DNA from: an uncultured beta proteobacterium
Lineage (GTDB): Bacteria; Pseudomonadota; Gammaproteobacteria; Burkholderiales; Burkholderiaceae_C
Direction of reading: 5' to 3'
DNA: 35,436 nucleotides
Assembly: GCA_903930255.1 (NCBI GenBank)
Contig: CAIYYA010000074.1
Coordinates: 1-35,436, forward strand
Of this stretch, positions 2,869 through 35,436 are shown one piece after another. Position 1 is the stretch's first letter. Every line of letters begins with the position of its first letter. The position numbers and the translations under genes were made by a program. The notes under the pieces were generated by a model that worked only from the letters and a program-made list of their open reading frames with translations, had not been told where the DNA came from and did not search any database.

Positions 2869-3957
2869 GTGAAGCATCTGACCCGACTCGCATCTATTGG
2901 CCTGACCCTCACCCTTGGGGCCTGTTCAGCCTTGCAAAGTGACAAGGTGGACTACAAAAGCTCGGGCAAAACCGCTCCGTCGCTGGAAATTCCGCCTGAT
3001 TTGACGCAACTCTCACGCGATACGCGCTATGTCGTAGCAGGCTCAGCCGTCACCGCTTCCGGCTTTCAAATGGGACAAGCAGTGGCACAACACAGCACCA
3101 CTGCGGCACTGGCGATGGGTGATGTGCGAATAGAGCGTGCCGGCGACCAACGTTGGCTGGTCATTACCCGGCCTGCCGACAAATTATGGGAACCGGTCAA
3201 AGAGTTTTGGCAAGAAAACGGTTTTCTATTGACCATGGATCAAGCCAACTTGGGCATCATGGAAACCGACTGGGCTGAAAACCGCGCCAAACTGCCACAA
3301 GACTTTGTCCGCCAAGCTCTGGGGAAAATGCTCGATTCGTTGTATTCCACCGGAGAGCGCGACAAGTTTCGCACCCGGCTGGAGCGCAATGCTAGCGGCG
3401 GCACCGACATCTTCATCAGCCACCGCGGCATGATCGAGGTCTATAGCAACACCGAAAAAGATCAGACCGTCTGGCAACCCCGCACAGTTGACCCCGAGTT
3501 AGAGGCTGAATTTTTGCGCCGTCTGATGGTCAAGTTGGGCGTGACTCAGGAGCAGTCCACTGCGCTGATCGCCTCGGGTGCCGTGAAGAACAGCTCGCGC
3601 GTGGGCAGCGTTGATGGGCAGAGTGTTGTCTTGCTCGACGAGGGTTTTGACCGTGCCTGGCGCCGAGTTGGCTTGTCGCTCGACCGCACCAATTTCACGG
3701 TGGAAGACCGCGACCGCGCCAAAGGCATCTACTTTGTGCGCTACGTTGCGCCGGTTGCAGACAAAGCCGACAGCGGTGGTTTTTTCAGCAATCTGTTTAG
3801 TTCGTCCAAACCAGACTCCACACCGAAAAAATTCAGAATTGCTGTGCTTGGCAAAGGCGAAACAAGCACGGTGTCGGTGCAAAGCACTGACGGCTCACGC
3901 GCAACAGCAAGCGATGCCCAGCGCATCGTCAAAGTGCTGGTCGACGATCTGAAATAA
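2869..3957 (+). CDS. bamC: Outer membrane assembly lipoprotein BamC
   Basis: Accessory lipoprotein of the Bam complex, which inserts beta-barrel proteins into the outer membrane. 362 aa from a GTG start at 2869 preceded by AAAGGAATTTT (GGA core). A lipoprotein signal peptide ends at a lipobox LTLGAC with the modified cysteine at position 19, followed by the extended N-terminal segment with the family's conserved IPPDLT motif (about residue 42). Two helix-grip domains follow, around 95-215 and 235-362. The position just after dapA supports the assignment. The next genes are convergent, ending 8 bases away. Confidence 0.93.
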   Translation: MKHLTRLASIGLTLTLGACSALQSDKVDYKSSGKTAPSLEIPPDLTQLSRDTRYVVAGSAVTASGFQMGQAVAQHSTTAALAMGDVRIERAGDQRWLVITRPADKLWEPVKEFWQENGFLLTMDQANLGIMETDWAENRAKLPQDFVRQALGKMLDSLYSTGERDKFRTRLERNASGGTDIFISHRGMIEVYSNTEKDQTVWQPRTVDPELEAEFLRRLMVKLGVTQEQSTALIASGAVKNSSRVGSVDGQSVVLLDEGFDRAWRRVGLSLDRTNFTVEDRDRAKGIYFVRYVAPVADKADSGGFFSNLFSSSKPDSTPKKFRIAVLGKGETSTVSVQSTDGSRATASDAQRIVKVLVDDLK

Positions 3958-3965
3958 GACGGATA

Positions 3966-4592
3966 TTAGCCCGTTGCGAAGCGGGTGCCGGCGGCCTTGA
4001 TGCCCCACAAAAGCTCAACCAGCGCAGGGCTGTTGAGCAGGGGTTCGCCAAAAATTACCAGCCAATAGCCAGCTTCGTCCACCCAAAAGGGCACGAATGC
4101 AGTGCTTGGCAACAAAAACTCAGGGTCCGTATGGAACGAGACAAAATGGCTCGCACCAGACCAACCTCGGCGTGCCTGTTTGCTGGCAAATTCAGAATAG
4201 GCAGCTGCAGCAGCGCTGAGCACGTCGGCATCGTCTTGCTCTACACCTGCGCGCGCCAGACAAAAGCCGCTTTCGGACGCCAAAACGGCACGACGCTCGC
4301 CAGACAGCGAGGCAATCACATGCTGCAAAAAATCGTCCAGCTTGGAGTCTGGCCCTTGTAGTGGACGCTGCAAACGCTGCACCCACAGCTGCTGCACCAG
4401 TTCGTCTAATTGGGAGCTGCTCATGCCAGCTTTGGCCAACCATGCGGATGTTTCGAGGCTGCGCTCGCCAGTCAACAAGCCTTGCAAGGCCAGCGCACTG
4501 GCATCTGGCTGCACATTTGAAAAAGCGCGTAAAACCCCCTTGGGCGTCAGCATCAGCCACTCAGAAACGCTCGCATTCGGTGCAGTTGTCAT
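3966..4592 (-). CDS. Roadblock/LC7-like protein, last gene of PAS/Roadblock operon
   Basis: 208-aa protein starting at ATG 4592 (MTTAPNASVSEWL); an upstream in-frame ATG at 4622 would add ten residues. The middle part (about 105-150) has the look of a Roadblock fold: a strand with small residues and a 'vxASESGFCLARAG' pattern followed by an alanine-rich helix, as in MglB/Roadblock proteins. The C-terminal part, with several WVDEAGYWLVIFGEP-type strands, resembles no family I recognise. It is the last gene of a five-gene operon that begins with a clear Roadblock gene at 6835. Roadblock proteins usually bind small GTPases or act as dimeric scaffolds, but no GTPase gene lies in the operon. Function unknown. 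Confidence 0.7.
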   Translation of the reverse strand: MTTAPNASVSEWLMLTPKGVLRAFSNVQPDASALALQGLLTGERSLETSAWLAKAGMSSSQLDELVQQLWVQRLQRPLQGPDSKLDDFLQHVIASLSGERRAVLASESGFCLARAGVEQDDADVLSAAAAAYSEFASKQARRGWSGASHFVSFHTDPEFLLPSTAFVPFWVDEAGYWLVIFGEPLLNSPALVELLWGIKAAGTRFATG

Positions 4593-29600: not shown

Positions 29601-29819
29601 ATGCTGTCTGTGCGTCTGCCACAACCCTTGGAAAATCAACTCGCTGCTTTTTGTGCGGCGCAACACCTCAGCAAGTCTTCGGTTGTGCAACTGGCTTTGG
29701 AAAAGCACCTGAGTCGCAACGACAACCCTTTTGCCGCATTGCGGGGTGTTGGCAACCGCAAGCTCACCACCGAGCAGATCATGAGCATGACGCGCGGTGA
29801 CGACTGGAACCAGCCATGA
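29601..29819 (+). CDS. VapB-type ribbon-helix-helix antitoxin
   Basis: 72 aa from ATG 29601. The N-terminal part MLSVRLPQPLENQLAAFCAA and QHLSKSSVVQLALEKHL is an RHH/CopG DNA-binding fold; the C-terminal part (NPFAALRGVGNRKLTTEQIM) should wrap the toxin. Overlaps the vapC ATG by four bases. Autorepression through the palindrome upstream is expected from the family. Confidence 0.9.
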   Translation: MLSVRLPQPLENQLAAFCAAQHLSKSSVVQLALEKHLSRNDNPFAALRGVGNRKLTTEQIMSMTRGDDWNQP

Positions 29820-30214
29820 CTCTGGTCGATACCAACGTCCTGATCGACTTGGTGCAAGACGACCCGGCATGGGCCGCTTGGTCTGAAGCGCAATTATTTG
29901 AAGCACAAAAGCACGGCGCTTTGTGCATTAACCCCGTTGCATACGCCGAGCTGGCACCGGCTTTTGACGACATGGCGGCTCTGGACGGTTTTTTGAAACT
30001 GGCCAACATCAGTGTCATGGATATTTCTCGCCCAACGGCGTATTTGGCGGGCACTGCGTTCTTGCGCTACCGCAGACTAAAGGGGACAAAAACCGGTGTG
30101 CTGGCCGACTTTTTCATCGGTGCGCAGGCACAAACTGAAGGCTGGACCCTCTTGACGCGGGATGCGGCACGCTACAAATCCTCTTTCCCCACGGTCAAAT
30201 TGATTTGCCCGTAG
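29816..30214 (+). CDS. VapC-type PIN-domain ribonuclease toxin
   Basis: 132 aa. The four acidic PIN residues are present: Asp5 in LVDTNVLIDL, the glutamate of NPVAYAELAPAF (about 46), the aspartate in VLADFFIGAQA (about 99) and LLTRDAARYKS (about 117). PIN toxins cut tRNA or rRNA and stop growth. The sequence looks intact and is paired with an intact antitoxin, the only complete module in this accessory zone besides hipBA further upstream. A repeat unit starting with its last codons is duplicated at 27.9 kb. Confidence 0.93.
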   Translation: MTLVDTNVLIDLVQDDPAWAAWSEAQLFEAQKHGALCINPVAYAELAPAFDDMAALDGFLKLANISVMDISRPTAYLAGTAFLRYRRLKGTKTGVLADFFIGAQAQTEGWTLLTRDAARYKSSFPTVKLICP

Positions 30215-30259
30215 TTATTGGTGAAATAGGCCTCTAGCGCACGCCAGCATTGCATAAGT

Positions 30260-30311
30260 AGCTATCAAATCAGGTGTGACTTGGGGTGGCAAAGGTAAGA
30301 CTGGAACCCAC
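30260..30311 (+). repeat. REP-like repeat copy R3
   Basis: AGCTATCAAATCAGGTGTGA followed by GGCAAAGGTAAGACTGGAAC and CCACTCA. Lies 46 bases after the vapC stop, as R1 does after the vapC stump. Confidence 0.8.
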
Positions 30312-30352: not shown

Positions 30353-31231
30353 TTACAACCCCAAAATAGCGCGAGCCTGGGCTTCAGGGATGCCATTGGC
30401 CAGCATATTGGTCAGGGCTTTTTGCAGACCCTCGTGCAGCCCTTCTAGTTTTCCTTCTAGTTTCCCCCTTTGCTCACCCCTGATCTCCGCCATGGCAAGC
30501 TGGGTCAACTCGTCGCGCAGGGCGCGATCTCGCACGCGGGCGCGCTCCTGGGTTTCGCTGTCTGCGCTCAAAGCTTTGAGTCGGTCAAGCGCTTGCTGCA
30601 CCGGCGGATAAGACAATTGGCTCATGGCGGACTCCTCGCTCCAATGTTCAAAAAATGTAACCCAGGCGGCCAAGCTTTGGGCTGCCGCACCTTGCAGTCT
30701 ATCGGCTTTGCCAAGTTCAATGATATTGAGTTCCAATTCTGCACCCAATTTGGTGGCTGGCTGCCAGCGGTCGCGCATCTCGAAGCACCAGTGGGCCTGG
30801 TTCAATTGCTCGGGTTCGGTGAACAAATCAAAGTTGAGCAGGTGGATGCCAATGACCGGTTTGAGCGCCAGATAACTCTCGCCGCTGCCAATTTGTTTGG
30901 TCAGCGTGCTGGCCAGGTAGTAGGCGCTGCGGGCGTTCCACAGATCAAAGCGTTTGACTTGCATTTCGATATTGATCAATCGACCCTGGCGGTCTTTGGC
31001 CAGAATGTCGAGCACGATGAACTTGCCACTGAGTTCCTCGGGGTCGATGCGCGGATTGAGCACCTCAAGCACGTCAAGCGGCTCCTGGTCGCTGCGCACG
31101 GCGTTGATCAGCGCTGTGAGCAGGTCGGGTGCGCTGGCAAACAGGCGTTTGAAGATGTAGTCGTTTTTGGGGTCGAGCAGGTGCATGGCTTGGATGTGGC
31201 GTGGGCTGCGGCTTGCGCCGGGCGAGGCCAT
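30353..31231 (-). CDS. Rpn family recombination-promoting nuclease / PD-(D/E)XK transposase
   Basis: 292 aa from ATG 31231; the ATG at 31186 (MHLLDPKNDYIFKRLF) is a good alternative. The PDDEXK_2 (Rpn/YhgA-like) domain is intact: LDPKNDYIFKRLFASAPDLL, then VLEVLNPRIDPEELSGKFIV and LDILAKDRQGRLINIEMQ with the catalytic D...ExQ. The C-terminal part holds charged repeats of the GKLEGKLEGLHEGLQKAL type, as in many family members. Rpn proteins promote RecA-independent DNA exchange and have been linked to anti-phage defence and mobility. An incomplete paralog lies at 29002-29481. Confidence 0.9.
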   Translation of the reverse strand: MASPGASRSPRHIQAMHLLDPKNDYIFKRLFASAPDLLTALINAVRSDQEPLDVLEVLNPRIDPEELSGKFIVLDILAKDRQGRLINIEMQVKRFDLWNARSAYYLASTLTKQIGSGESYLALKPVIGIHLLNFDLFTEPEQLNQAHWCFEMRDRWQPATKLGAELELNIIELGKADRLQGAAAQSLAAWVTFFEHWSEESAMSQLSYPPVQQALDRLKALSADSETQERARVRDRALRDELTQLAMAEIRGEQRGKLEGKLEGLHEGLQKALTNMLANGIPEAQARAILGL

Positions 31232-31285
31232 GATAGCCAAAAATCGACTGCTTGTGTCTACATAGGCCTTCAGTATTTCGTGAGC

Positions 31286-31322
31286 AACTATCAAATCAGT
31301 TGCATTTCTGGTGGCAAAGTTG
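31286..31322 (+). repeat. REP-like repeat copy R4
   Basis: AACTATCAAATCAGTTGCATTTC, then GGTGGCAAAGTTGATGC, a shorter and more diverged copy between the Rpn gene and the DUF2442 pseudogene. Confidence 0.65.
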
Positions 31323-31344
31323 ATGCTTAAACCAGTTCAAGCCA

Positions 31345-31846: not shown

Positions 31847-32236
31847 CTAAGCCGCTGCACCCCCATCAAACCACTGCTGCCAGCGCACGGCTTGTTTTGA
31901 AACCGATTCAAGCACCCCGGTCAATTCATGCAACCCGCCGTGCGACAAAAGTTTCAATTGCCAGGCAACCAGCAAATAGCTGCGAATCACCTCAATTGAC
32001 ACCCGCAACTCACCCAAGGCCTGGGCGCCTTTTATGCGTCCTGCTGCTTCCTGTTTGTGGCAGTGATTGGCCAGCGTTACCAACTTCAGGCAGGCCGTGA
32101 TCTCGTTCAAAATGCTCTCCCCGGTCGTAAATCGAAACGGCTTGGGCAAACCCGCGTGAATCGGGTAGTAGCGCTTGTAGAACATCAGCAAGTCAGAAAA
32201 TATCTGCGGATGTTTGAAGACCTGGTCCATCGTCAT
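31847..32236 (-). CDS. avd: Avd-type accessory protein (four-helix bundle)
   Basis: 129 aa from ATG 32236 (MTMDQVFKHPQIF); the second ATG at 32230 is possible. A longer frame reaches 32614 but only by running antisense through the RT gene. The pattern of Avd/four-helix bundle proteins is clear: LPKPFRFTTGESILNEITAC (about 30-49), KLVTLANHCHKQEAAGRIKG, ALGELRVSIEVIRSYLLVAW and a final helix SVSKQAVRWQQWF. Avd binds the RT as a basic pentamer and is needed for TR cDNA synthesis. Here it is divergent from the RT, their start codons only six bases apart. Confidence 0.88.
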   Translation of the reverse strand: MTMDQVFKHPQIFSDLLMFYKRYYPIHAGLPKPFRFTTGESILNEITACLKLVTLANHCHKQEAAGRIKGAQALGELRVSIEVIRSYLLVAWQLKLLSHGGLHELTGVLESVSKQAVRWQQWFDGGAAA

Positions 32237-32242
32237 CTGTCC

Positions 32243-33484
32243 ATGAATGAAAAAGAAATTGCTTGCCAACTGTATGCCTGCGTCAATCGCTCTGGCAACA
32301 GCATCGACAAACGACGTTGTCTGATCGTGTTGCCTGAGCTCGTTCGCGCTCTTGCCAACGACATTGCCGCGACTTCCTATAGACCAGGCAGGATGACTGC
32401 TTTTGCGGTGCAAGACCCGAAGTTGCGCGAAATTCTTGCCCCCAGCTTTCGCGACCGTCTGGCCCAGCAATGGCTGGTGTCCGTCATCAGTCCGGTCATT
32501 GAAGCCCAATGGATAGATGACTGCTTCTCTAACCGGGTCGGCAAGGGCACGCACAGCGCCATTGACCGACTGCAACGCTTCATGCGCATGCCTGCCCACA
32601 GTCACTATTGCCAAATGGATATCCGTTCATTTTTTCCTTCCATCAACCGACGCACGCTGCTGGGTTTGTGGCAGTCCGAACTGGCAAGACTGCCGCATTC
32701 AGATCAAACCTGCGGCCAATTGGACGCTGTTGCGCGGTCAATCATTCTGCAAAACCCAATCATCCCCGCGCCCGTCATCAGTGGCGATGTGCGCCTGCTG
32801 CGTCAAATCCCGCCGCATAAATCACTTTTTTATGCACAACCCGGCATTGGCCTGCCCATCGGCAGCTTGTCGAGCCAGTTCTTTAGCAACGTCTATCTCA
32901 ACCCGCTGGATCAATTCATCAAGCACCAGCTCAAAATCAAAGGCTACTTGCGCTACGTGGACGACTTCATCATCCTGGGCAACGAGCCTCAAAAACTGCT
33001 TTTGCAGATGCATGACATCAATCAATTTTTGCTTGACACATTGCAACTACAACTGCACCCCGACAAAACCATACTGCAGCGCGTTGACCAAGGCGCTAAC
33101 TTTCTTGGCTACATCGCATTTGCGCACCACAGCTACGTGCGCGATCGCACCCTGCGCGCCTTGCGAAAACGCATTTATTTTTTCAACCACCTGCTCAACC
33201 CAGTGCAATACCCACACCGTCAGATCCTCCAGCACGGCGCCTGGTGGCAGTGGCTGGCGCTGCACCAACTCACGCCGCCGCTGCGGCCTCACCCCGTGCT
33301 GCTCAAGCGCATGCTGGCCACGCTCAACAGCTACTACGGCCAGCTCAGCCATGCCAATACCTACCACCTGCGGCGCAACATTTTTCACCACATGCTGGGC
33401 CCCATCAAACGCTACTTCATGCCTGGCGATGCCGTTTACACCAAATTGCGCATCAAGCCTGTCTGGCTGCTCTCACCCCCATGA
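32243..33484 (+). CDS. DGR reverse transcriptase
   Basis: 413 aa from ATG 32243 (MNEKEIACQLYACVNRSGN). Upstream frame to 32057 is antisense of avd and was left out. RT motifs: CFSNRVGKGTHSAIDRLQRF (94-113), QMDIRSFFPSI with the first catalytic Asp126 (124-134), GIGLPIGSLSSQFFSN (201-216) holding the DGR-type IGxxxSQ in place of the QGxxxSP of retrotransposons, YVDDF with Asp240 and Asp241 (238-242), and GANFLGY (284-290). It should copy TR RNA with adenine mutagenesis. No Shine-Dalgarno is visible before the ATG. The stop lies nine bases before the TR. Confidence 0.96.
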   Translation: MNEKEIACQLYACVNRSGNSIDKRRCLIVLPELVRALANDIAATSYRPGRMTAFAVQDPKLREILAPSFRDRLAQQWLVSVISPVIEAQWIDDCFSNRVGKGTHSAIDRLQRFMRMPAHSHYCQMDIRSFFPSINRRTLLGLWQSELARLPHSDQTCGQLDAVARSIILQNPIIPAPVISGDVRLLRQIPPHKSLFYAQPGIGLPIGSLSSQFFSNVYLNPLDQFIKHQLKIKGYLRYVDDFIILGNEPQKLLLQMHDINQFLLDTLQLQLHPDKTILQRVDQGANFLGYIAFAHHSYVRDRTLRALRKRIYFFNHLLNPVQYPHRQILQHGAWWQWLALHQLTPPLRPHPVLLKRMLATLNSYYGQLSHANTYHLRRNIFHHMLGPIKRYFMPGDAVYTKLRIKPVWLLSPP

Positions 33485-33493
33485 GTGGGCGTG

Positions 33494-33633
33494 GCTCTAG
33501 CGGACACAAGACACGTAGTTGTTGTTCGTGTCGTTGTTCCAGTTGACGTTGCCGTTGTTCAGGTTGACGTTGTAGTGGTTGCCCGAACCGTTGGCCGTGG
33601 AAGACCAGGTGTTGTTCAACGCCCAACCCTGAC
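33494..33633 (-). repeat. DGR template repeat (TR)
   Basis: 140 bp, aligned without gaps to VR at 34500-34639, offset 1006. Read on the minus strand it is full of AAC codons and translates as TWSSTANGSGNHYNVNLNNG followed by NVNWNNDTNNNYVSCVR, which is the mark of a TR. Adenines of the minus strand: 40 by hand count; 24 of them differ from VR. Only two non-adenine positions differ (33509 and 33575). The adenine strand is the minus strand, so the template RNA must be the minus-strand transcript, convergent with the RT gene. Confidence 0.96.
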
Positions 33634-33865
33634 AAAAATGCATCTTGACTCGTGCCGGGTAAACCCCAATCAGATCCACCCGGCTCGGTGACACCGTTTG
33701 CACCGTGTTCACCCCCATTGATGCGATCAGGCACAAGGCCTGACCGCGCAAGATGCCAGCCACATCCCCAAGTGGCCTGTTTTGTTTCAGCCGTAACCGA
33801 AACACCCATTAGGCACCCATGCATGGCACAGGCAGGATGAGAGCAAGCCAGAACCCAAAATATTG
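33634..33865 (-). other. Non-coding stretch upstream of TR
   Basis: 232 bases between the MutS-like gene and TR on the minus strand. Open frames reach through it (for example 33497-33805) but have no family resemblance outside the TR part. DGR template RNAs include functional flanks, so this is a candidate for the 5' part of the template RNA. Confidence 0.5.
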
Positions 33866-34393
33866 TCAGGCCACCTCGCTTTCTTGCTGGCTGCTGTGCC
33901 ACTGCTGCTGCAAATTGGCCACCAGATTTAGCGCCGCCAGGGGCGAGCTGGTGGCCAGATTGAACTGCAGCAATTGATTGACCAGCGCTTGCGCCAAATG
34001 CCCCGCTTGACCTGAATGCACCGGTAGGGCTGGTGTTGCCTCAACTCGGCTGGGTTGAAGCGGCAGCACCACACGCCAGGCATCGTAAAGCACCCGATCC
34101 ACCGCGCCAGCCAAGGGCCAACGCCAGATCAACGCGTCCAGTTGCGACGCCTGCACAAAGCCGGGCAAGGTACGTAGCAGCGTCAAAGGCACCCCGCACA
34201 CCACCCGATCCGTCCCTGCTGACTTGACAAAACGGCGCAGCGGCTTGCAGGCCAGCACCTGATGAATGAAGCCATAAGCCCCTTCGTTATAGGCACGCAC
34301 AAACAAGCCCTCCTGGTAAAGGTAAACCGCGCCTAGATCAGCCGCTTGGCGCGTGAATTTCGTTAATACCAAGGGCTCGACTTCGGATGGCAT
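33866..34393 (-). CDS. MutS-domain-I-like DGR accessory protein
   Basis: 175 aa from ATG 34393 (MPSEVEPLVLTKFTRQAADL), with GGAG eight bases upstream. The first 70 residues follow the MutS mismatch-binding domain: VLTKFTRQAADLGAVYLYQE in place of the MutS 'qy...k..ypd.llffr.GdFYe' segment, and DRVVCGVPLTLL in place of 'pmcGVPyha'. The MutS Phe-x-Glu is not kept in that form (YLYQEGLFVRAY). The C-terminal part (about 130-175) is helical. No ATPase domain. I recall MutS-like genes being catalogued near some DGRs. A role in directing or sparing mutagenised cDNA from repair is inference. A stretch in front (to 34477) is hydrophobic only because of a poly-T tract. Confidence 0.65.
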   Translation of the reverse strand: MPSEVEPLVLTKFTRQAADLGAVYLYQEGLFVRAYNEGAYGFIHQVLACKPLRRFVKSAGTDRVVCGVPLTLLRTLPGFVQASQLDALIWRWPLAGAVDRVLYDAWRVVLPLQPSRVEATPALPVHSGQAGHLAQALVNQLLQFNLATSSPLAALNLVANLQQQWHSSQQESEVA

Positions 34394-34405
34394 GCGATTG
34401 ACTCC

Positions 34406-34434
34406 AAAAAAAAATATCGCCGCGCTTCGCGCGG
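34406..34434 (-). terminator. Hairpin with T tract downstream of the VR gene
   Basis: Minus strand: CCGCGC-GAA-GCGCGG (34420-34434), then CGATA and nine T (34414-34406). This is an intrinsic terminator for the target gene, whose stop is about 68 bases upstream. DGRs such as that of Bordetella phage carry a hairpin after VR that aids retrohoming; that one lies nearer to VR, so that role is only a possibility here. The tract also precedes the ribosome binding site of the MutS-like gene. Confidence 0.7.
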
Positions 34435-34499
34435 ATTGACCAAAGACAAACAACCAAAAAAAAAACCAAAAAATCAAAAATCAAATTTCAAAACCCAAA
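34435..34499. other. A-rich low-complexity spacer after VR
   Basis: 65 bases with runs of A on the plus strand (T on the coding strand), between the end of VR and the hairpin. No gene. Its sharply biased composition contrasts with the GC-rich surroundings. Confidence 0.6.
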
Positions 34500-34639
34500 G
34501 CTCTAGCGGACACACGACACGTAGCCGTAGAGCGTGTCGACGCCCCAGCGGACGTTGCCGATGCCCAGGCCGACGCCGTATCGGTAGCCCGAACCGTCGG
34601 CCGTGGAAGACCAGGTGAGGTCCAACGCCCAACCCTGAC
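34500..34639 (-). repeat. DGR variable repeat (VR)
   Basis: 140 bp covering the last 45 codons of the target gene, its TAG stop (34503-34505) and the following three bases. Differences from TR: 24 at TR adenines, 2 elsewhere, no gaps. Fifteen residues differ from the TR translation, nearly all TR Asn codons: for example TWSSTADGSGYRYGVGLGIG. The 25 bp at the coding 3' end (34500-34524) are constant except for one T-to-G difference at 34515, which fits the IMH/IMH* difference that makes exchange one-way. Confidence 0.96.
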
Positions 34640-35436
34640 CATTCATCGCGCCAGAGCTGTACAGACTGCTCAGCTCGGGTTGAGTGGGCAGGCGCCAGCC
34701 GGTTTGGCCATTGAAGGTGCCAGCCGCGCAAAAGGCATTGGCGGTTGCCCAGTTGGCATATCCGCCAGGAATGCCCCAATTGTTGAAATCGCCCCCAAAG
34801 GTGGCGCTGCCGATGGTGTTGGGCGTCCAGGTCAGGCCACCTTGCACCACATAGCCTGCCGGCAGGGGTGCCCCCGTCACACTGGCCGTGGCGCTGGATA
34901 CAACCGGCGTACCGGTGGTTGGAGCCACGGTAGAGACCGGGGTCACTTCAAAGCTAATGGTGCTGCCCTGATCGGCGGCAACCAGCGTGTAAGTGCTGGC
35001 CGTGGCCCCCGGAATGGCAACCCCGCCACGCAGCCAGCGGAACGTGCTGGTGCCTTGCGGGTCGCTGTTGATGTCAGAGTAGGTGTAGCTGCCAGTCAGC
35101 ACTTGCCCCACCTGGGCGGTGCCGCTGATGGTCACATTGCTGACCGTGGGGGCAGCGGGGGCTGCGCCCGTTGTCACTGCCACGCTTTGCACTGCCGCCT
35201 GCACGTTGTTGGCGGCATCTTTAGCCACAAAATAAATCTTGTAAGCCGTCGATGCGCTCAGCCCACTGATAGCCGGTGTAGCAGCTACGTTCGCCGTCAT
35301 GGCAAAAGCCGTACCTGCTTGCACCGCTGCCACAGTGGGCGCTGCAGCAGCTGCGGCTTGTACCAGGTAATAGCCCGTGCCTGCTTCGTTAATGGTGGCG
35401 GATAGTGTTGTTGCTGTGTCGGTGGTGCCAGAAACA
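34503..35436 (-). CDS. DGR target protein: Ig/FN3-like repeats with C-type-lectin-like C-terminus, 5' partial
   Basis: 310 residues visible; the frame is open to the window end, so the N-terminus is missing. Order: a fibronectin-type-III-like domain (about 20-90, with SGLSASTAYKIYFVAKDAAN), an Ig-like domain (about 97-187, with GQVLTGSYTYSDINSDPQGT and FRWLRGGVAIPGATASTYTL), then a C-type-lectin-like domain of the DUF1566/FGE kind (about 190-310) with TGWRLPTQPELSSLYSSG and WSSTADGSGY. The VR fills about residues 267-310. Likely secreted or surface-anchored, serving as a diversified ligand-binding adhesin; transport signal lies outside the window. Confidence 0.92.
   Translation of the reverse strand, partial: VSGTTDTATTLSATINEAGTGYYLVQAAAAAAPTVAAVQAGTAFAMTANVAATPAISGLSASTAYKIYFVAKDAANNVQAAVQSVAVTTGAAPAAPTVSNVTISGTAQVGQVLTGSYTYSDINSDPQGTSTFRWLRGGVAIPGATASTYTLVAADQGSTISFEVTPVSTVAPTTGTPVVSSATASVTGAPLPAGYVVQGGLTWTPNTIGSATFGGDFNNWGIPGGYANWATANAFCAAGTFNGQTGWRLPTQPELSSLYSSGAMNGQGWALDLTWSSTADGSGYRYGVGLGIGNVRWGVDTLYGYVSCVR

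Follow-up and report, generated by a model that had tools for sequence, protein, structure and literature searches.

The 35,436 nucleotides analysed here (the window) are one whole contig (C74, CAIYYA010000074.1) of the 377-contig assembly GCA_903930255.1 of an uncultured betaproteobacterium. At their end they very probably carry a diversity-generating retroelement (DGR), a bacterial system for rewriting a short segment of a gene for a surface protein; it appears intact, with open frames (Table 1). It belongs to the rare inverted type: the reverse transcriptase (RT) gene faces the opposite way to all other parts. The inverted type has been known since 2012; new are the membership of the window copy, the spread of its RT lineage, and the diversification of the variable repeat (VR) among plasmids of one strain in which RT and template repeat (TR) are constant. 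A sequence-only reading had proposed a complete DGR between 31847 and 35436, and the avd gene, RT, TR, VR and accessory open reading frame (ORF) that it listed were all found. It had missed that the RT gene alone is opposite to everything else.

Table 1. Parts of the inverted DGR at the end of the window
Feature	Position	Strand	Basis or remark
avd, 129 aa	31847..32236	-	ATG at 32236 (or 32230); PHROG match and same-place homologues in relatives
rt, DGR reverse transcriptase, 413 aa	32243..33484	+	RVT_1, PHROG RT, IGSLSSQ and YVDD, placement with DGR RTs
TR, template repeat, 140 nt	33494..33633	-	TR/VR comparison
Accessory ORF, 175 aa	33866..34393	-	Profile of gammaproteobacterial and Desulfovibrio members
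GC hairpin downstream of VR	34420..34434	-	Stem 6, GAA loop, then T run
TTTR tract, 7-base phase, directly behind VR	34465..34499	-	
VR, variable repeat, 140 nt, spans target stop codon	34500..34639	-	TR/VR comparison
Target gene, 3' part: Ig-like region and Lcl_C domain	34503..35436	-	Lcl_C match; 60% identity to L050 target

Each coding part of the core element is backed by profile matches. The RT is matched by RVT_1 (E = 8.9e-15) and by the PHROG reverse transcriptase (E = 1.2e-77), and the IGxxxSQ and YVDD motifs pointed out earlier are present as IGSLSSQ and YVDD. The Avd ORF matches the PHROG family 'Avd protein of DGR' (E = 5.4e-11), while its Pfam bAvd and NCBIfam Avd matches fall under the curated cut-offs. 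The target gene carries an Lcl_C domain (E = 1.9e-10), which is linked to the C-type-lectin fold, and an IG_AIR9 match under its cut-off. VR sits at the stop codon of this gene, in keeping with its earlier placement in a C-type-lectin-like gene. Along the minus strand, from high to low coordinates, the order is target with VR, tract, hairpin, accessory ORF, TR, (rt) and avd. Only rt is on the plus strand: rt and avd lie head to head with 6 bases between their start codons (an in-frame ATG for rt is also found at 32210), and rt and TR lie tail to tail, 9 bases from the rt stop codon to TR. In the Bordetella phage BPP-1, all DGR parts are on one strand.

The two repeats bear the mark of adenine-specific mutagenesis. 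They align without gaps at 81% identity, and 24 of the 26 mismatches over 140 positions fall at TR adenines, of which there are 40 (binomial P = 1.5e-11). VR carries an A at one of the mismatches, and one of the two non-A mismatches (T to G) is within the last 20 bases. All 40 TR adenines occupy codon positions 1 or 2 of the VR frame, and VR ends at the stop codon of the target gene. A TR search of the window's genome returned one TR and one VR only.

The near-full-length relatives of the window RT that have a repeat pair share the inverted layout. With the single RT as query, short-pattern scans confirmed no relative in genome or viral contigs. An alignment of five RTs retrieved 27 genome-contig loci, with identities of up to 76% (a Gallionella metagenome-assembled genome, MAG), and, in viral contigs, the best 80 of at least 563 loci. 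A mechanical search for A-specific repeat pairs divided the 27 genome loci (locus handles, L, are ours) into 13 with an inverted pair, three with a canonical pair (L074-L076, whose RTs are 30-32% identical over part of their length) and 11 without a pair, for which the reasons seen include short contigs, inserts and a changed TR. The 80 viral loci comprise 75 canonical, one inverted (L125) and four pairless ones. Among the plasmid matches listed (20 of 1667 records), near-full-length relatives have about 40-54% identity, and the plasmid loci, six at first (L044-L049) and ten more (L191-L200), are all inverted; the best match in phage records has 37.6% identity. Of the plasmid and genome loci fetched first, 19 combine a near-full-length RT match with a repeat pair, and all 19 have the opposite-strand layout. 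Where avd is found beside rt the two are head to head and, according to the start codons taken, are at most 11 bases apart or overlap by some 20 bases or more; in L061, by exception, avd lies downstream on the RT strand. Two of the loci have features of their own. In L052, part of a broken TR is separated from rt by two ORFs (3752-4368) that by eye resemble a PIN-toxin/antitoxin pair, and a VR (204-333) is on the avd side of the cassette. The inverted DGR of the viral contig L125 (7935-10030) sits amid canonical phage DGR RTs and may have been inverted independently.

A first tree was built from 67 RTs, with a subset of the canonical viral loci. In it the window groups with L050, L051 and L052 (100/100). 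The next to join (99/97) are copies from Rhodoferax, Halomonas, a further betaproteobacterium and Aeromonas, followed by those of Gammaproteobacteria and Desulfovibrio (100/99), two more proteobacterial MAG copies (100/100) and two Patescibacteria copies (96/88). As for grouping with the published inverted DGRs, an 18-row set that holds the window and S. baltica (L048) is supported at 100/99 and a 20-row set at 100/100 in this tree, a point left unresolved in a wider tree with non-DGR RTs. The wider tree, whose deep order is also unresolved, keeps the window with inverted copies (100/99) and places L072 elsewhere. Ten of the 11 RTs lacking both the SQ motif and a repeat pair fall outside the DGR RTs, at a support (86/90) that is not strong; the eleventh, L029, has a very long branch and its placement is unreliable. 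The SQ motif itself is present in all 13 RTs labelled inverted (L057 and L069, without a found repeat pair, are counted here), in 15 of 16 canonical RTs and in none of the 11 others. The window RT falls with DGR RTs. Neither outcome that the sequence-only reading had named as evidence against itself, an identical VR in all strains or an RT clustering with group II introns or retrons, was seen; VR was compared in relatives. The position of L125 among canonical RTs indicates that the inversion arose more than once or was lost.

Comparison of closely related loci shows that in this RT lineage VR varies while TR stays constant. Three plasmids of Vibrio vulnificus GCU-01 are identical in rt (0/1287 bases) and TR (0/136), and their VRs differ at 20-22 of 136 positions, 18-21 of them at TR adenines. 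Similarly, a Yersinia hibernica plasmid (L046) and Budvicia aquatica (L060) show no TR difference over 132 positions and 19 VR differences, 18 of which are at TR adenines; between L044 and L045, TR is unchanged (0/162) and VR differs in 25 of 165 columns. Over the Vibrio/Shewanella-type loci as a whole, 2248 of 2576 VR differences are at TR adenines (120 pairs from 16 loci, the pairs not being independent; L192, the seventeenth locus of the set, was left out of the pair count because its repeat was cut two bases longer). The three GCU-01 plasmids, with the same RT and TR and different VRs in one strain, offer material for measuring the mutation spectrum of the lineage.

Some further observations concern individual copies. 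Several plasmids of one strain can carry the same inverted DGR (L193, L199 and L200 in V. vulnificus GCU-01; L194 and L198 in V. harveyi NH-LM1), a pattern suggestive of cassette movement from one plasmid to another; in one of the V. vulnificus plasmids there are two matching places. In the Aeromonas locus L045 the RT frame is shortened, yet its VR differs from that of L044. In Vibrio splendidus 12E03 (L065, 6190-6460), 21 differences over 235 columns separate the sequence from the TR region of L062; 14 are at L062 adenines and the differences cluster inside TR, so that TR looks mutagenised, as if mutated cDNA (complementary DNA) had homed into the template.

Directly behind VR, the first 45 bases contain TTT[AG] (TTTR) repeats at 7-base spacing. 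At least three TTTR in phase occur in 13 of 20 inverted loci (3.5% in shuffles), in none of the 20 behind TR and, at the usable sites of canonical loci (90 of 97 loci), in 0/90 behind the first VR and 0/157 behind all VRs. When most near-copies are dropped, the tract is retained in 11 of 14 inverted loci against 0.53 expected in shuffles, and other periods between 5 and 12 are found in none or one of the 14; 29 of 47 successive TTTR spacings are exactly 7. Canonical loci have a looser form, a TTTR pair 8 or, less often, 7 bases apart: among the 90 (from L004-L156), two or more in phase at 8 bases occur in 25 against 2.9 expected, and at 7 bases in 13 against 3.1, both counts being without kinship weighting.

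The tract was also located by scanning 26 whole loci on both strands. It has a single match in the 35,436 bp of the window, at the VR edge, and is found at VR in 14 of 16 inverted loci with known VR, some of them near-copies; two of these 14 tracts start 2-3 bases inside VR. Elsewhere there are ten matches in 560,042 strand-bases, four of which represent one site in near-copies. Loci without a repeat pair yielded six matches, two of which mark VR ends (L052 near 204-333 and L065 near 7104); the VR end of L052 was first revealed by the tract, while the target end of L065 had already been seen. The tract is present with and without the accessory gene, and the accessory protein is therefore not required for it. 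In the window, the GC hairpin lies 65 bases behind VR with the phased tract in between, and neither element is found behind TR. Stems and loops of the hairpin vary among inverted loci, and none was detected behind the L072 VR at the settings used.

TR and VR are nearly alike in their last 30 bases, with 0-2 non-A mismatches in 15/15 inverted loci, and so a feature that marks VR is likely to lie outside the repeat. On these grounds the tract is a candidate for such a role. We tentatively propose, at rather less than even confidence, that it is an undescribed DGR target mark. Acting with the hairpin, it would open up or present the end of VR, or else bind a DGR protein, and VR would in this way be told from TR. 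No description of a repeat tract behind VR was found in our searches of the open literature (subscription papers lie outside this scope) or in the accessible part of PMC3240598. In a recent E. coli study, accessible in part (PMC12875486, 2026), the hairpin raises efficiency, targets co-directional with replication are favoured, and the hairpin is proposed to keep the target open; by analogy, a T-rich phased tract could likewise do so. The same source describes the homing of mutated cDNA into the target rather than elsewhere as not fully understood. A compact element found at VR only can be tested by deletion and, if the proposal is true, would be a tag for locating target sites without knowing TR.

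The mechanism we envisage for the locus is as follows. The minus strand would yield the target, the accessory protein and a TR-bearing RNA. The RT, expressed from the other strand, and Avd would copy the TR RNA into cDNA with misincorporation at adenines, and this cDNA would replace VR via the shared 3' end of the repeats, with the phased tract and the GC hairpin outside the repeat marking VR as the target. The product would be a diversified lectin-like tip on an Ig-repeat adhesin. Inverted DGRs separate RT expression from template expression.

Several observations weigh against this picture. The VR variation described above was seen in relatives only, not in the window's own species; moreover, identical VRs occur in S. 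baltica OS117, OS155 and L066, among four V. parahaemolyticus plasmids and likewise in two V. harveyi plasmids. A promoter scan of the region gave no excess over chance. In the whole-locus scan the tract was absent from L072 and L125, both inverted. The hairpin reads as an intrinsic terminator as well; terminator-like sites in the region show no excess over shuffles. Finally, the last 30 bases are of similarly high identity in canonical loci (0-3 non-A mismatches in the 12 checked), and this property is therefore not a distinguishing mark of inverted DGRs.

The accessory gene, whose presence within the locus had been anticipated, belongs to a protein family that we did not find in print in our searches. 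The ORF has no match in Pfam, NCBIfam, PHROGs or PADLOC at E = 0.1. Ten members of the family align, the profiles of the beta- and gamma-type proteins match each other (98%, E = 4.6e-14), and a profile built without the window's group finds the window ORF at E = 2.9e-12 among 15,440 ORFs, where matches are confined to loci of the window's RT lineage. A set of 369 genomes from the class, taken out of a larger group, contains the family once, in the window's own genome. The Vibrio-type protein is in 16 plasmid records, all 16 also present in the RT list; the window protein has no plasmid match at E = 0.01, and one pattern used against viral contigs returned no homologue. The gene is absent in L053-L056 and in Aeromonas, where TR and VR are 299-417 bases apart; L071, L072 and L125 have Avd as the ORF between the two repeats. 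One may ask whether the accessory ORF encodes a small MutS-like protein, comparable to the DGR accessory MSL (Pfam MutS_I), that shields the mismatched VR-cDNA heteroduplex from mismatch repair. A profile comparison with MutS_I gives an order of weak matches that is suggestive and not significant. None of the ten accessory proteins has a MutS_I sequence match, and no MutS_I-like ORF stood out near the fetched DGRs (best E = 0.44); we regard such a function as unlikely. As to a MutS domain I fold, the structure model (predicted local distance difference test score 61) gave no Foldseek match at E = 0.001.

The RNA part behind TR is essential in BPP-1, and in inverted DGRs it might be encoded antisense to the 3' end of rt, which would then bear a second, structured RNA message. 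The geometry is compatible with this. Among the 21 inverted loci of the first set (window and L125 included), 19 have the start of TR between -18 and +75 bases of the rt stop, so that any 3' extension of the TR RNA would be antisense to rt; in the other two, both Aeromonas plasmids, IS30-family genes separate rt from TR. Synonymous differences are also lacking in the last 19 codons of the Vibrio/Shewanella rt (0/67 codon comparisons, four sequence pairs). However, the 140 nt behind TR show no more structure than shuffled sequences do (mean z -0.2, 1/13 below -2; canonical DGRs, same region: mean z -0.99, 5/25 below -2), and the ratio of observed to expected synonymous changes near the rt end is 0.79 in the window's group versus 1.38 in the Rhodoferax/Halomonas group, with values of 2.2-2.7 around codons 350-385 in Vibrio. 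A structured antisense RNA is not supported by the shuffles, the synonymous-rate test is inconsistent, and we consider this explanation doubtful and have set it aside. An Rfam scan at E = 0.5 gave a single match far under the gathering score, taken as chance. Least probable is that the window parts are relics of a decayed DGR without function in this host: the Aeromonas copy L045, whose RT frame is shortened and whose TR is cut off from rt by IS30-family genes, the Yersinia copy (L046) with IS1 beside rt and no avd match, and the single VR of the window's genome would fit decay, but the window frames are open and only 2 of 26 TR/VR differences lie away from TR adenines, so that little ordinary mutation has accumulated since the last homing.

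The target had been described as a large surface-type protein. This is not visible in the window, where 310 codons run open to position 35436, the gene being cut because the window is the whole contig; the nearest homologue, the L050 target, has 1077 aa and a C-terminal Lcl_C domain, and the window target is 60% identical to its residues 772-1077. Gammaproteobacterial targets of the relatives have bacterial Ig-like and invasin/intimin-type domains. The suggested chromosomal setting agrees with the chorismate synthase, NhaA and Msc-type channel genes on the same contig. The assembly is fragmented and slightly contaminated (completeness 93.67, contamination 6.51), which calls for caution on the host assignment; judging from its relatives, the contig that bears the window copy appears to be chromosomal and of betaproteobacterial lineage. 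Within the genus, family and order to which the window belongs, TR is on the RT strand in all 17 loci that have a repeat pair (L004-L009, L011, L012, L034, L036-L043; the reading is ambiguous for L006 and L040), and no pair was found in L010, L033 and L035. As relatives in the genus have DGRs of the canonical type, the element probably arrived in this host horizontally, again with the contamination value as a caution.

Some further observations may be added. L033, from the window's family, holds a fragment of an RT, 50% identical over 215 residues, that contains in-frame stops and lies close to the end of its contig; no pair was found there, and the fragment was excluded from counts and trees. 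In the window, imperfect direct repeats about 1026 bases apart (30245-30308 and 31271-31333) flank a PDDEXK_2 transposase-family gene (30353-31294), close to which lies a PIN-domain gene (29816-30214).

Among known systems, all of them compared through the accessible parts of the papers cited, the closest are the inverted DGRs published in 2012 from Shewanella baltica OS155, Vibrio sp. RC586 and Photobacterium angustum S14 (DiGReF Group 4, PMC3521204) and the 'G5' cassette of PMC6642488. Group 4 and the window have in common RT on one strand and TR, VR and target on the other, as well as long repeats with adenine-specific changes, and RTs of this type group together in PMC3521204; the OS155 copy analysed here has the layout of the window, accessory gene included. 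The accessible parts of PMC3521204 and PMC6642488 make no mention of the head-to-head avd/rt arrangement, the accessory family or the phased tract. MSL, a DGR accessory protein assigned to Pfam PF01624 MutS_I (PMC10053308), resembles the window's accessory ORF as a small gene beside a DGR with faint MutS-like features, whereas the window protein has no significant MutS_I sequence match. BPP-1 resembles the window in having RT and Avd, both repeats with VR placed at the target's 3' end, and a GC hairpin behind VR (PMC3240598). Phage-type hairpins have a 7-10 bp stem and a GRNA loop, and that of BPP-1, whose stem is 8 bp and whose loop is 4 nt long, follows VR at a distance of 4 bp (PMC3240598), as compared to 65 bases, a stem of 6 and the triloop GAA in the window. 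Unlike DiGReF Group 4, the window copy appears, from its relatives, to lie on a betaproteobacterial chromosomal contig and has a target of other make-up; it adds to the inverted DGRs a chromosomal, betaproteobacterial-type member with an Ig-like, Lcl_C-tipped target.

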